From positions 66,019 to 99,013 of the forward strand of contig JAGLUP010000003.1 in the NCBI GenBank assembly GCA_023134715.1: DNA of 32,995 nucleotides. Reading direction: 5' to 3'. The stretch comes from Candidatus Parcubacteria bacterium. GTDB lineage: Bacteria > Patescibacteriota > Minisyncoccia > Minisyncoccales > JAGLUP01. The position numbers and the translations under genes were made by a program. The notes below the pieces were generated by a model. That model searched no databases and was not told the DNA's origin. It saw only the letters and a program-made list of their open reading frames with translations. Of this stretch, positions 26,786-32,995 are shown piece after piece (within the stretch, counting starts at the first letter, position 1; every line of letters begins with the position of its first letter).

Positions 26786-27742
<957 letters not shown>

Positions 27743-27743
27743 T

Positions 27744-28472
27744 ATGAAGAAAATCCGTCCTAAAGAAAAAATAATAGCGATAATACCCGCTCGCGGCGGC
27801 TCTAAAGGACTTTCTAGAAAAAATATAAGGATTATTGCAGAAAAACCTTTAATTGCGTGGACAATAGAATCTGCAAAAAAATCAAAATATTTAGATAGGA
27901 TTGTTGTTTCAACAGAAGATAAAGAAATTGCAGAAGTTAGCGAAAAATATGGCGTAGAAGTTATTAAGAGACCAGCAGAATTAGCGAGAGATAATTCTCC
28001 GACATTTGATGCAGTTATGCATGTGATTGATTATTTTCAGAGTAAAGGGGAAGTTTTTGATATTGTAGTAATATTAGAGGCAACATCCCCCTTAAGAGAT
28101 TCAGAAGATATAGATAAATGTATAGAAATATTATATTCAAATGAAAAGGCAAGAGCTATTGTAAGCATTGCAAAATTGGAGAGTTCTCATCCTGAATTTA
28201 ATGTTGTATTGAATAAAGAAAGATTTATAAAAAAAATTAATGGAACCTCAAATTTCAGAACACTGCGGAGACAGGAATTACAAGATATATTCTTTTTTGA
28301 TGGGACCATATATATTTCATATATTGATACGTATAAGCAGAAAAGAACAATTTATCATGAATTAACATTAGGGTATATAGTTCCTAAATATAAGTCATTG
28401 GAAGTGGATGATATATATGATTTTATATCTATTGAAGCATTAATAAAAGCTAAAAAAGAGGGTAAAATATGA
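27744..28472 (+). CDS. neuA: CMP-nonulosonic acid cytidylyltransferase (NeuA-like)
   Basis: This 242-residue enzyme starts at the ATG 1 nt after the fcl stop; an ATG at 27732 overlapping fcl by 11 nt would add four residues. The nucleotide-binding loop IIPARGGSKGLSRKN lies near 11-25, with ILEATSPLRD near 108 and FFFDGTIYI near 188. It activates a sialic-type nonulosonate with CTP, giving the CMP-sugar donor. The FFFDGTIYI variant and overall form are like PtmB/LegF-type and NeuA-type enzymes alike; the accepted sugar cannot be told. It overlaps the aminotransferase gene by 4 nt (ATGA), implying translational coupling. Confidence 0.9.
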   Translation: MKKIRPKEKIIAIIPARGGSKGLSRKNIRIIAEKPLIAWTIESAKKSKYLDRIVVSTEDKEIAEVSEKYGVEVIKRPAELARDNSPTFDAVMHVIDYFQSKGEVFDIVVILEATSPLRDSEDIDKCIEILYSNEKARAIVSIAKLESSHPEFNVVLNKERFIKKINGTSNFRTLRRQELQDIFFFDGTIYISYIDTYKQKRTIYHELTLGYIVPKYKSLEVDDIYDFISIEALIKAKKEGKI

Positions 28473-29782
28473 AAATTAACAAAGGAATCAAATTATGGAA
28501 TAAAGCCAAGAAAATTATTCCAGGAGGAACCCAGTTGCTCTCAAAAAGATCTGAGTTGTTTTTACCAAATCAATGGCCTTCTTATTTTCAAAAAGCAAAG
28601 GGAGTAGAAGTTTGGGATTTAGACGGTAATAAATTTATTGATATGTCTATTATGGGAGTGGGAACCTGTATTTTAGGATATGCTGACGAAGATGTGAATA
28701 GAGCAGTTAAAAAAGTTATAGATGAGAGCTGTATATCTACCTTAAATTCTCCAGAAGAGGTAGAATTAGCAGAATTATTATTAAAACTGCATCCTTGGGC
28801 AAAAATGGCAAGATATGCAAGAACAGGAGGAGAGGCAATAGCAATGGCAATAAGAACAGGACGCGCTTTTACAGGCAGGGACAAGGTCGCTTTTTGCGGT
28901 TATCATGGTTGGAGCGATTGGTATTTATCAGCCAACTTATCTAATAACAAAAACTTAGACGGACAGTTGCTGCCTGGTCTTGAGCCAGCCGGTGTTCCCA
29001 GATGTTTGAAAGGAACAGCAATTCCATTTAATTATAATAAGATTGAAGAACTTAAAAAAGTTACAAAGGAAAATAAAATTGGAGTTATCATAATGGAGCC
29101 GCGGAGAGAGCGTGGACCCGAAAAAGGTTTTTTGGAAGATGTCAGGAAAATTGCCGATAAAACTGGCGCGGTTTTAATTTTTGATGAAGTAACTACTGGC
29201 TGGCGGATGAATCTCGGGGGAATTCATAATCTTTATGGCGTTTTTCCGGATATTGTTATTTACGGCAAGGCGATAAGCAATGGTTTTCCAATGGCAGTGG
29301 TGGTAGGAAAAAAGAAAGTTATGGAGTTTTTTCAAAAAAGTTTTATCAGCAGCACTTACTGGACTGAAAGAATAGGACCTGTAGCAGCTATTACTACTAT
29401 AAAAAAAATAAAAAAGCAAAATGTTCCTTCTCATTTAAATAAAATCGGGAATTTAATAAATGAGGGGTGGAGAAAATTAGCGGAAAAACACGATTTGAAA
29501 ATAAATATAACAGGCATTCCTCCCTTAACAACCTTTATTTTTGATTATAAAAAAAATTCTCAAGCGTTGCATACTTTATTTACTCAAGAAATGCTGGAAA
29601 GAGGATATTTAGCTTCAAAAAGCGTGTATGTTTCTTATAGCCATAATGAAAGACATATAAAAGAATATTTAGAGAACGTAGACAAAGCATTTGAACTAAT
29701 TAAAAATGGCATAGAGAAAGACAATATTCATAATTTACTTAAGGGACCCATTGCTCATACCGGATTTAAACGTTTAACTTAA
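28469..29782 (+). CDS. Class III PLP aminotransferase, GSA-aminomutase-like
   Basis: This 437-residue fold-type I PLP enzyme has IIPGGTQLLSKR near 17-28, VWDLDGNKFIDM, ARTGGEAIAMAIRTGRA (phosphate contact), FCGYHGWSDWY, LIFDEVTTGWR with the pyridine-binding Asp, and the Schiff-base Lys267 in YGKAISNG. It looks like glutamate-1-semialdehyde aminomutases, but its position argues for a sugar substrate: it overlaps neuA by 4 nt, the PtmA-like SDR follows after 19 nt, and neuB/neuC lie downstream. With the SDR it could oxidise a hydroxyl and replace it by an amine on a nonulosonate or its precursor. Heme biosynthesis is less likely, since no other heme gene is here. Substrate uncertain. Confidence 0.85.
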   Translation: MKINKGIKLWNKAKKIIPGGTQLLSKRSELFLPNQWPSYFQKAKGVEVWDLDGNKFIDMSIMGVGTCILGYADEDVNRAVKKVIDESCISTLNSPEEVELAELLLKLHPWAKMARYARTGGEAIAMAIRTGRAFTGRDKVAFCGYHGWSDWYLSANLSNNKNLDGQLLPGLEPAGVPRCLKGTAIPFNYNKIEELKKVTKENKIGVIIMEPRRERGPEKGFLEDVRKIADKTGAVLIFDEVTTGWRMNLGGIHNLYGVFPDIVIYGKAISNGFPMAVVVGKKKVMEFFQKSFISSTYWTERIGPVAAITTIKKIKKQNVPSHLNKIGNLINEGWRKLAEKHDLKINITGIPPLTTFIFDYKKNSQALHTLFTQEMLERGYLASKSVYVSYSHNERHIKEYLENVDKAFELIKNGIEKDNIHNLLKGPIAHTGFKRLT

Positions 29783-29801
29783 AGTTTAATTTTTATAAAA
29801 T

Positions 29802-30581
29802 ATGTTTAATTTTAAAAATAAAACAATTATTATTACTGGCGGCGCAGGATTAATTGGCAGCGCATTTTCAAAAGCATGCTCAAAACATTATGCGAATGTT
29901 GTTATCGTAGATATTGATGAAAAAAAAGGGGATAATTTAGTTAAAGAATTAAAAAAAGAGACCGGAAGTGAAAATATAATATTCCAGAGATGCGATATTA
30001 CAAGCATTAATGATATTCAAGATTTGATAAATATTACATTAAATAAATTCAAAACAATTGATGCGCTTATAAACAATGCATATCCGAGAAACAAAAATTA
30101 TGGCAGGAAATTTGAGGATGTCACTTATGGAGATTTTTGCGAAAATGTGAATATGCACCTTGGAGGATATTTCTTAATAACAAAAGAAATATCAAAAGTT
30201 ATGATTAAACAGAATAATGGAAATATAATTAATATGGCTTCTATTTATGGATTTTCTGCTCCGGATTTTGAGATTTATAAAAAAACAAATATGACAATGC
30301 CTGTAGAATACGCAGCCATAAAAGGAGCCATAATAAATTTAACCAGGTATTTAGCGTCTTATTTAGGAAAGCATAATATTAGAGTGAATGCCATTTCTCC
30401 TGGCGGAGTTTTTAATAATCAGTCCCCAGAATTTGTTAAGAAATATTGTGAAAAAGTTGTTTTGGAAAAAAGAATGGCGAGCACAGATGATTTGACAGGA
30501 GTTTTAGTGTTTTTATTGTCTGATGCTTCAAAATATATTACTGGACAGAATATTATAGTAGACGGAGGATTTACATTATAA
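29802..30581 (+). CDS. ptmA: PtmA-like short-chain dehydrogenase
   Basis: This 259-residue classical SDR has the cofactor loop TGGAGLIGSAF (11-21), Asp-based NAD preference (VIVDID), NNAY near 91, catalytic Ser147 in MASIYG, Tyr170 and Lys174 in VEYAAIKGA, and the end GQNIIVDGGFTL. The stretch NAYPRNKNYGRKF, then DFCENVNMHLGGYFL, and the 23-residue gap between Ser and Tyr are as I recall for PtmA of Campylobacter flagellin glycosylation loci. The reaction catalysed by PtmA-type SDRs is not one I can state with certainty. The gene follows the class III aminotransferase and is presumably its partner in sugar modification. Confidence 0.85.
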   Translation: MFNFKNKTIIITGGAGLIGSAFSKACSKHYANVVIVDIDEKKGDNLVKELKKETGSENIIFQRCDITSINDIQDLINITLNKFKTIDALINNAYPRNKNYGRKFEDVTYGDFCENVNMHLGGYFLITKEISKVMIKQNNGNIINMASIYGFSAPDFEIYKKTNMTMPVEYAAIKGAIINLTRYLASYLGKHNIRVNAISPGGVFNNQSPEFVKKYCEKVVLEKRMASTDDLTGVLVFLLSDASKYITGQNIIVDGGFTL

Positions 30582-30604
30582 AAAAAGACGAGTTTTTTCT
30601 CGCC
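30578..30604 (-). terminator. Minus-strand terminator for the DMT transporter gene
   Basis: On the minus strand GGCGAG and CTCGTC pair around six A (30604-30587) and are followed by a run of T (30586-30578). It overlaps the ptmA stop codon. On the plus strand it lacks a T-tract. Confidence 0.6.
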
Positions 30605-30638
30605 CATAAATTTTTGTTCTTTTTATCTCAGTAAAACT

Positions 30639-31508
30639 TTATCTTAGCAAAACCAGGATTGTTCCGATAATTCCTATTGTAAAACCAAACCACTCTTTTC
30701 TAGAAAGCCCCTTTCTTTCTTTAAAAATAGACCAACCCAGCAGGACTGGAATTATAGTAATAAACAGTCCTCGCAAAGGAAGCACCATGCTGACAGGACC
30801 TCCTAATTGGAAAGTCCAATAGAGAGCGAAAAGGGATCCCAGAATAGCCAAACTTAAAGGAAACACTAATAGGATTGTTTTTCTAGATGCTTGAAGTGGA
30901 TTTTGTTTTTCTAATCTCAGAATTGGCAGGGCGCCCAAGAAAGCTCCTCCATACCATCCCATAAGAAAAGTTCCTTGAGAAACAGTAAAAGAAAACAACT
31001 TCATTAAGAAACCGGCCACTCCGAAAATTAGAATCATCGCTAAGGTAAATAAGAACCACTTTTTATTGAAAATTTCCTTTATTTTTCCATCATTGCCTGT
31101 TGATGACCGGAAAAGCCAAATTGCTGAGAAACAAAGTGCTGCCCCTAAGATTAATTGGATATTCCAGAGATTAATTTCTCCCAAGAATATCATTGCTAAT
31201 CCTATCGCCGTAACTTCCATTAAGGGAAAAAATAAAACGGTTTTACTAAGACTTATATCAAATGCTCGCCACTGACAGTAGTTTCCAAAGGTATTTATAA
31301 ATCCCACTGCTCCTATCAGAATAATCACAGAATTTATATTGCCTTTTTCTGAAAACAGGAAGAACAAGATTGATAGACTAACACAAAATAGATACTGATA
31401 AAATATTCCTATGGCTTTTTTAGGCAGTTTGTCAGTGATTACTTTCGTTAAAACCACGCTAACGGTATTTATGACTACCAATAGCCCCAAAGCTAATTGC
31501 CAATACAT
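30639..31508 (-). CDS. EamA/DMT-superfamily transporter
   Basis: This 289-residue integral membrane protein has about ten transmembrane helices in two EamA-like halves (about 1-130 and 150-289). Helices end in short basic loops, and the closing motif GFTIGIIGTILVLL is usual for the family. The start has GGGGTGAT about 5 nt upstream on the minus strand. The superfamily moves small metabolites or nucleotide sugars. It lies on the opposite strand between ptmA and neuB, so a role in exporting or importing a sugar intermediate of this locus is possible, but its separate transcription also allows an unrelated role. Confidence 0.8.
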   Translation of the reverse strand: MYWQLALGLLVVINTVSVVLTKVITDKLPKKAIGIFYQYLFCVSLSILFFLFSEKGNINSVIILIGAVGFINTFGNYCQWRAFDISLSKTVLFFPLMEVTAIGLAMIFLGEINLWNIQLILGAALCFSAIWLFRSSTGNDGKIKEIFNKKWFLFTLAMILIFGVAGFLMKLFSFTVSQGTFLMGWYGGAFLGALPILRLEKQNPLQASRKTILLVFPLSLAILGSLFALYWTFQLGGPVSMVLPLRGLFITIIPVLLGWSIFKERKGLSRKEWFGFTIGIIGTILVLLR

Positions 31509-31612
31509 TTTTAATCACCCCATATTTGTTTTAAATTTTTAATTTACTGTAATGCAATATAATAACATAAATTAATAAAAAGTCAACAAATTTAATTTAA
31601 TTTTTAAAAATA

Positions 31613-32713
31613 ATGAAAATAAAAATAGAAAATAAATTAATAGGTGAAAAAAAACCCTGTTTTATAATAGCTGAAGCAGGAGTTAATCATAACGGCGATT
31701 TAGGATTGGCTAAGAAATTAGTTGATGCGGCAAAGAATGCCGGAGTTGATGTTGTGAAATTTCAGACATTTAAGTCGGAAAAAATCGTAACACCAGACGC
31801 TAAACAGGCGAAATACCAGTCAGAAAACATCGGCAAGAAAGAATCGCAATACGCGATGTTGAAAAGGTTAGAATTGCCTTATTCTAAGTTCAGAGAATTA
31901 AAGGCATATTGCGATCGAAAAGGAATAATTTTTTTATCAACTCCTCATTCTTGCCAGGAAGATGTTGACCTTGTTGCTGAATTGTGTCCGGCTATAAAAG
32001 TTGGCAGTGGCGACTTGACTAATCTACCGATATTAAAATATATTGCCGGTAAAAAATTGCCAATTATTTTATCAACTGGAATGGCAACATTAGAAGAAGT
32101 GAGAGAAGCAGTTGAGACGATTCTGTCAATCAATGAGAAATTGATTTTGCTTCATTGTACAACAAACTACCCAACACCTCTTAATGAGGTCAATCTGAAA
32201 GCTATGCTGACAATGGCAAAAGAATTTGATTTACCCGTAGGTTATTCTGACCACACAGAGGGTATAAATGTTTCTTTAGCTGCTGTTGCTCTCGGTGCTT
32301 GCGTTATTGAGAAGCATTTTACATTAGACAGAAATCTTCCCGGACCAGACCACAAGGCATCACTTGAGCCCTTAGAATTAAAGAAAATGGTTGATGGTAT
32401 AAGAAATATTGAGAAACGACTAAACCAGAAAGAGAACCTGGATAACATTATTACAGAACTAAATATCCCAGAAGCATTAGGAAGCGGAATTAAAAAACCC
32501 AACCCAAGTGAAATTGAAGTTGCTGAAGTAGCCAGAAAAAGCATTGTTGCCGCTGTAGATATAAAAAAAGGAACAAAAATAGTAGAAGAAATGTTGATTA
32601 TAAAGCGACCTGGAATTGGAATTTTGCCAAAATATTTTAATAAAGTCATTGGCAGAATTGTCAAAAAAGACATAAATCAAGACACATTAATTGAATTTAA
32701 AGATTTAAAATGA
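31613..32713 (+). CDS. neuB: Nonulosonic acid synthase (NeuB/LegI-like)
   Basis: The 366-residue enzyme has a TIM-barrel domain (about 1-285) and a C-terminal SAF (antifreeze-like) domain (about 305-366). Visible motifs are FIIAEAGVNHNGD (18-30), VVKFQTF, STPHS, KVGSGDL, LSTGMA, HCTTNYPTP, GYSDHTEG and EKHFTLDR-PGPDH. It condenses phosphoenolpyruvate with an N-acetylmannosamine-type sugar to make a nine-carbon acid. Neu5Ac and legionaminic acid synthases share these motifs, so the product is uncertain. The TGA stop overlaps the ATG of neuC. The gene follows a 104-nt AT-rich gap with TATAAT at 31558-31563 but no clear -35 box, possibly a separate promoter. Confidence 0.93.
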   Translation: MKIKIENKLIGEKKPCFIIAEAGVNHNGDLGLAKKLVDAAKNAGVDVVKFQTFKSEKIVTPDAKQAKYQSENIGKKESQYAMLKRLELPYSKFRELKAYCDRKGIIFLSTPHSCQEDVDLVAELCPAIKVGSGDLTNLPILKYIAGKKLPIILSTGMATLEEVREAVETILSINEKLILLHCTTNYPTPLNEVNLKAMLTMAKEFDLPVGYSDHTEGINVSLAAVALGACVIEKHFTLDRNLPGPDHKASLEPLELKKMVDGIRNIEKRLNQKENLDNIITELNIPEALGSGIKKPNPSEIEVAEVARKSIVAAVDIKKGTKIVEEMLIIKRPGIGILPKYFNKVIGRIVKKDINQDTLIEFKDLK

Positions 32714-32995
32714 AAAAAATTCTTTACATTTCAGGAACAAGAGCAGATTATGGTTTGATGAGGCGCGCTTTATTAACTATAAATAAGCATCCAAAGTTAG
32801 AAGTAGAAGTAATAGCTGCTGGCATGCATTTAATGCCGGAATTTGGCGAGACAATAAAAGAGATTAGAAAAGATAATCTTAAAATTTATAGAATAGACGC
32901 AGTTTATGAAAATGATAATAGAGAATCAAGCTCTTGTTTTATTGGTGAATTTGTTCAACTTTTTGCCAAAAGAATAAAAAGAATAAGACCTGATA
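32710..32995 (+). CDS. neuC: UDP-GlcNAc 2-epimerase, hydrolysing (NeuC/LegG-like), partial
   Basis: The first 95 residues of a longer protein cut by the right edge. It opens with KKILYISGTRADYGLMRRAL, the NeuC signature in which GTRADYG closes the first strand-loop of the GT-B-like fold, and continues with VEVIAAGMHLMPEFGETIKEI, also typical. NeuC-type enzymes hydrolyse and epimerise UDP-GlcNAc to ManNAc; LegG-type ones use a 2,4-diacetamido-6-deoxy substrate. The ATG overlaps the neuB stop (ATGA), so the two are translationally coupled. The catalytic C-terminal half is outside the window. Confidence 0.9.
   Translation, partial: MKKILYISGTRADYGLMRRALLTINKHPKLEVEVIAAGMHLMPEFGETIKEIRKDNLKIYRIDAVYENDNRESSSCFIGEFVQLFAKRIKRIRPD

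Follow-up and report, generated by a model that had tools for sequence, protein, structure and literature searches.

The window, a stretch of 32,995 nucleotides from Candidatus Parcubacteria bacterium (contig JAGLUP010000003.1, positions 66019-99013; genome of 0.76 Mb in 12 contigs, 90% complete), carries near its right end a legionaminic-type gene set for a CMP-activated nonulosonic acid together with an accessory class III aminotransferase, here named AT3. This aminotransferase proved to be a recurrent accessory enzyme of nonulosonic acid clusters to which no function has been assigned so far, and the legionaminic-type pathway of this genome thus bears a widespread unassigned part of such clusters. 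We consider it an even chance that AT3, with the help of a dehydrogenase, aminates a free hydroxyl of the nonulosonate before the NeuA step.

An earlier note on the window had reported NeuA, a class III aminotransferase, a short-chain dehydrogenase/reductase (SDR) resembling PtmA, NeuB and NeuC together, with neuA tightly coupled to the aminotransferase gene. The observation was confirmed: profile matches identified all five proteins (Table 1), and the reading frames of neuA and AT3 share 4 bases. The same 4-base overlap was present in a Pelagibacteraceae locus (L105), which is also among the neuC-type loci (L072, L081, L105 and L096) where the nearest relatives of the window NeuA (41-46% identity) adjoin AT3.

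In a scan of genome contigs, 570 relatives of AT3 were confirmed, and the analysis covers 77 of the 80 best among them; their loci are related by transfer, and the counts below are not independent events. Nonulosonic acid clusters contained 58 of the 77, in about 20 phyla, and 46 of these 58 had neuB nearby. Most of these clusters were of the pseudaminic type (pseB, pseC, pseG and neuB); a few were of the neuC type seen in the window. A cytidylyltransferase was fused to AT3 or lay directly next to it on the same strand in 43 of the 58. In 20 loci from seven phyla, AT3 and a cytidylyltransferase of the SpsF type formed a single open reading frame (ORF) of about 675 aa, and in 15 of these no second cytidylyltransferase was found in the locus. 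Since all the fusions fall within one part of the tree, they may represent one event spread by transfer. The recurrence of the 4-base overlap in L105, together with the single-ORF fusions in seven phyla, demonstrates that the association of neuA with AT3 is not due to chance.

An aldo-keto reductase (AKR), a Gfo/Idh protein or an SDR was encoded within 8 genes of AT3 in 53 of the 58 nonulosonic loci, where the similarity searches detect SDRs in general and not PtmA alone. Where an AKR was present, it mostly preceded AT3 by one or two genes (31 of 36 loci), and the positions of the SDRs relative to AT3 were scattered. In one locus (L065) the AKR is fused to the cytidylyltransferase, a fusion also reported for Vibrio B9-25K2 (PMC7371886). 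Annotated replicons gave similar arrangements: a Pseudosulfitobacter plasmid has the order pseB-pseC-AKR-GNAT-hypothetical-fusion-pseG-pseI, and a plasmid of the archaeon Halorussus carries Gfo, a gene that resembles a cytidylyltransferase and is labelled “glycosyltransferase family protein” in the annotation, and AT3. In the flagellar glycosylation island of Aeromonas group I, pseB-pseC-AKR-pseF-class III aminotransferase-pseG-pseI, the authors left the function of the aminotransferase unassigned (PMC7874193); when their strains are summed, the AKR and the aminotransferase are both present in 90 and both absent in 6. Likened by description and not by sequence, this island resembles the window in that a class III aminotransferase adjoins the CMP-nonulosonate synthetase and an oxidoreductase is present, but it is of the pseudaminic type and has an AKR in place of the SDR. 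The flagellin glycan of Aeromonas hydrophila AH-1 (403 Da) has an odd mass, with fragments one unit off Pse5Ac7Ac9Ac (PMC4691044). This would fit an odd nitrogen count and possibly a nonulosonate with three nitrogens; the authors' top formula lacks nitrogen, and we did not use the glycan as evidence.

NeuA, AT3 and the SDR are encoded consecutively in the window, so that a cytidylyltransferase, an aminotransferase and an oxidoreductase are all in the locus. In Shewanella, Kdo8N (8-amino-Kdo) is made by KdnB, KdnA and KdsB, which are the oxidase, aminotransferase and CMP-synthetase acting on a ketodeoxy sugar acid; KdnA is a DegT-type aminotransferase and KdnB an iron alcohol dehydrogenase. Because AT3 recurs alongside a cytidylyltransferase and an oxidoreductase, and Kdo8N synthesis relies on this trio of functions too, oxidation followed by transamination of a sialic-like acid, which the earlier note had proposed from the Kdo analogy, still appears the best inference. 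The likeness lies in the logic of the trio, whereas the enzymes are unrelated and the sugar is different. AT3 matched PF00202 only and is not homologous to DegT-type enzymes such as KdnA, and the KdnA structure (5k8b) is a relative of a DegT protein encoded to the right of the window, not of AT3. Judged from sequence, AT3 is thus an analogue of KdnA and not a member of its family.

In the proposed pathway, a PglF-type dehydratase, a DegT aminotransferase, an LbH acetyltransferase, NeuC, NeuB and NeuA, all of them families present in this genome, would supply a 5,7-diamino-3,5,7,9-tetradeoxy-nonulosonate. One free hydroxyl of this nonulosonate would be oxidised to a ketone by a dehydrogenase, for which the PtmA-like SDR encoded next to AT3 is a possible candidate; AT3 would then transaminate the ketone, and NeuA would place CMP on the aminated sugar. 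The legionaminic and pseudaminic acid skeleton has free hydroxyls at C4 and C8 only. Amination would probably occur at C8, giving a product with a third amino group, because 8-amino nonulosonates occur in nature (PMC3210612). The O-antigen of Flexibacter (Tenacibaculum) maritimus contains a 5,7-diacylamido-8-amino-3,5,7,8,9-pentadeoxy-nonulosonate (PMC3210612), the kind of product predicted here, and the earlier claim of an undescribed sugar was therefore too strong. Biosynthetic genes for the F. maritimus sugar were not found in the literature searched. A tentative extension, against which we lean slightly, is that cytidylyltransferase, aminotransferase and oxidoreductase together form a module of general occurrence that has escaped recognition and makes 8-amino (triamino) nonulosonic acids in more than 12 bacterial and archaeal phyla and in both the pseudaminic and the legionaminic series.

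AT3 might instead be the glutamate-1-semialdehyde aminomutase (GSAM) of the heme pathway, located here by chance, which the earlier note had named as a way in which its proposal could fail. GSAMs are the nearest solved structures to AT3, and the lysine for pyridoxal phosphate (K267) and D239, invariant in 21 AT3 relatives, both align with them. However, AT3 scored 217 bits against the HemL model (cut-off 527) and 272 bits against PRK06209 (cut-off 486), the genes around it belong to sugar biosynthesis, and neither glutamyl-tRNA reductase (HemA) nor 5-aminolevulinate dehydratase (HemB) was found in the 90% complete genome, where the controls were positive. The probability left for a heme role is negligible, and in practice we regard it as refuted. 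A search for AT3 in phages gave no match.

Several observations weigh against amination of a nonulosonate by AT3 and its neighbours. Among the 77 relatives, 19 lie outside nonulosonic clusters, including the nearest one to the window AT3 (L109:1-9752, 68% identity) and its sister (L032, 62%). These two are surrounded by genes for a dihydrodipicolinate synthase (DHDPS)-type aldolase, Gfo and an SDR, plus a BNR-repeat protein in L109 or an amidohydrolase in L032, and given such contexts the substrate of AT3 may differ. Both loci look catabolic, perhaps degrading a related amino sugar acid; in L097, the AT3 relative is part of a 794-aa ORF with an apparently amidohydrolase-like N-terminal part. 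In the O-antigen clusters of Legionella Sg6 and Sg12, a class III aminotransferase, likened to AT3 by description, adjoins a cytidylyltransferase (PMC3694923). The sugar of Legionella non-1 serogroups, as cited in PMC3210612 and with the serogroups not matched to Sg6/Sg12, is a 5-acetamidino-7-acetamido-3,5,7,9-tetradeoxy compound that has no third amine. The relatives outside nonulosonic clusters would agree with AT3 and the oxidoreductase making a substituent, such as an amino-acid-like acyl donor, or acting on an early sugar precursor, the cytidylyltransferase link then being operon convenience; class III aminotransferases often use small amino acids and amines. We regard this as quite improbable, as the fusion to the cytidylyltransferase, mostly with no other such enzyme found in the locus, points to the stage of CMP activation.

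The partner of AT3 is a separate question. Of the Patescibacterial NeuB loci that lack AT3, 42 in all, 16 had a PtmA-like SDR; the legionaminic cluster of Plesiomonas has such an SDR and no class III aminotransferase (PMC4481668), and its authors assign PtmA to the first, GDP-sugar segment. In addition, several Patescibacterial NeuB loci (among L161-L177) combine an AKR, an SDR and a cytidylyltransferase without AT3. AT3 itself occurred in 2 of 44 unbiased Patescibacterial NeuB loci, too few for a partner association. Since nonulosonic clusters that lack AT3 can have a PtmA-like SDR as well, we are unsure whether PtmA is the oxidase partner, and this part of the earlier proposal stands less well than the transamination. 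AT3 might then aminate the nonulosonate after oxidation by another enzyme, with PtmA contributing to the supply of precursors or to some other step, as it does in clusters of the Campylobacter type; the scattered SDR positions and the mostly fixed place of the AKR shortly upstream of AT3 agree with this. Against it, the window SDR directly follows AT3, and in AT3 loci with one kind of oxidoreductase this was an SDR in 7 of 7 neuC-type loci and an AKR or Gfo in 27 of 30 pseudaminic-type loci (Fisher 1e-5, with the loci taken as independent despite their kinship). This split could also follow from the genes that each type of cluster normally contains. We consider such a division of labour unlikely, though the most serious of the alternatives.

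A conserved Patescibacterial set of NeuB, SDR and AKR without AT3 was seen in L161, L162, L165, L166, L168, L169, L173, L176 and L177. It usually includes a cytidylyltransferase (none was seen in the L177 stretch), and in several of these loci NeuB forms part of a longer, fused reading frame (about 625-640 aa). A related redox modification of the nonulosonate without amination is possible for this set.

The genes of the locus are listed in Table 1. The unrelated minus-strand EamA-type gene stands between neuA-AT3-ptmA on one side and neuB-neuC with the genes that follow on the other, and because of this interruption the five genes are not one operon. The best NCBIfam match of NeuA was PseF (140 bits), below the cut-off of 206. 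The SDR passed the broad PRK09186 model and stayed below the PtmA equivalog model NF050062 (229.6 bits, cut-off 350). NeuB gave one match in the whole genome, and its best solved relative is SpsE (1vli); that of NeuC is the GDP/UDP-N,N'-diacetylbacillosamine 2-epimerase 5xvs. The closest relatives of the window genome include Patescibacteria. Proteins of about 220 aa adjoin neuA or AT3, near ptmA, in other neuC-type clusters (L105:11305-11970, L054:4095-4763 and L104:17667-18320); the one tested, from L105, had no Pfam match.

Table 1 Genes of the nonulosonic acid locus in and to the right of the window (positions in the window unless preceded by the locus name L002)
Feature	Position	Strand	Profile match or remark
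neuA-like CMP-nonulosonate synthetase (cytidylyltransferase, 246 aa)	27732..28472	+	CTP_transf_3, PF02348, 94 bits
Class III aminotransferase AT3 (437 aa, GSAM-like fold family)	28469..29782	+	Aminotran_3, PF00202, 143 bits
PtmA-like SDR (259 aa)	29802..30581	+	NCBIfam PRK09186, 315.9 bits (cut-off 255); catalytic Y-x3-K kept
EamA-like transporter	30639..31508	-	PF00892, 28.0 bits, just below cut-off; not known to belong to the set
neuB/legI-type nonulosonic acid synthase (366 aa)	31613..32713	+	TIGR03569 (NeuB_NnaB), 459 bits (cut-off 400)
neuC/legG-type hydrolysing 2-epimerase	32710..32995 (start); whole gene L002:11729-12871	+	TIGR03568 (NeuC_NnaA), 436 bits (cut-off 236)
LbH acetyltransferase (132 aa), right of window	L002:12892-13290		Directly after neuC
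CBS-DegT aminotransferase (491 aa), right of window	L002:13283-14758		Two CBS domains and a DegT domain

The earlier note had found no DegT-type aminotransferase and no dedicated dehydratase, and it had advised extending the locus to the right for legB, legC and legH. Their absence was an effect of the window edge. An LbH acetyltransferase and a CBS-DegT aminotransferase directly follow neuC, and a flippase, an epimerase-like SDR and a nucleotidyltransferase come after them. The DegT domain shares 52% identity with its counterpart in L023, 50% with L159, 49% with L156 and 46% with L158, all of them Patescibacterial loci, and the LbH protein 59% with L159 and 57% with L158. L158 and L159 again show the Leg-type order neuB-neuC-LbH-DegT-dehydratase, and in such Patescibacterial loci a 4,6-dehydratase lies next or near. 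CBS domains are unusual on a DegT aminotransferase resembling LegC or PseC, and in such clusters they usually occur on the nucleotidyltransferase PtmE. The CBS-DegT protein did not reach the cut-offs for PseC and LegC, and no LegB over its cut-off was found in the genome.

A dehydratase is nevertheless encoded in the same sugar island. This PglF/WbpM-type protein of 640 aa (L111:364-2286, contig positions 122163-124085) lies about 26 kb to the right of AT3, not adjacent to the set, and has the motif STDK...MGATK (SMK triad). Methionine in place of tyrosine marks retaining 4,6-dehydratases. The dehydratases of L023, L158 and L159 are likewise of the SMK type (STDK/SSDK...MGxxK), not the YGATK of PseB. 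An SDR at L002:16218-17249 was considered as the missing dehydratase and rejected, as it has TVH for the TDE motif and H for the catalytic Y. With the LbH and CBS-DegT genes to the right of the window and the PglF-type dehydratase in the island, a UDP-route legionaminic-type pathway is, on family assignments, likely complete in this genome. In substance, then, a probably complete legionaminic-type pathway does continue just outside the window, the outcome that the earlier note had set against its own interpretation, although with no LegB over the cut-off and a distant dehydratase; that interpretation is partly supported overall.

The UDP route to legionaminic acid is the Legionella-type pathway. 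The locus shares with it, and with the GDP route of Campylobacter and Plesiomonas (PMC4481668), NeuA, NeuB, NeuC, a DegT aminotransferase, an LbH acetyltransferase and a PtmA-like SDR. It differs from both in having the distant SMK dehydratase instead of a recognisable LegB, the CBS domains on the DegT enzyme and the additional class III aminotransferase; PtmF, in contrast to the GDP-route clusters, was not found among the genes next to the set.

If the trio is indeed a module for 8-amino nonulosonic acids, a sugar so far noted in a single fish pathogen would occur widely, and many glycans of flagella and cell surfaces now recorded as ordinary pseudaminic or legionaminic acid would bear a third amine, which might be free and positively charged. 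This would change the interpretation of mass spectra and of surface charge, and would account for the class III aminotransferase that published clusters, the Aeromonas group I islands among them, leave unassigned. The fusion of CMP-synthetase and aminotransferase offers a single protein for biochemical assay, which makes the question directly testable.

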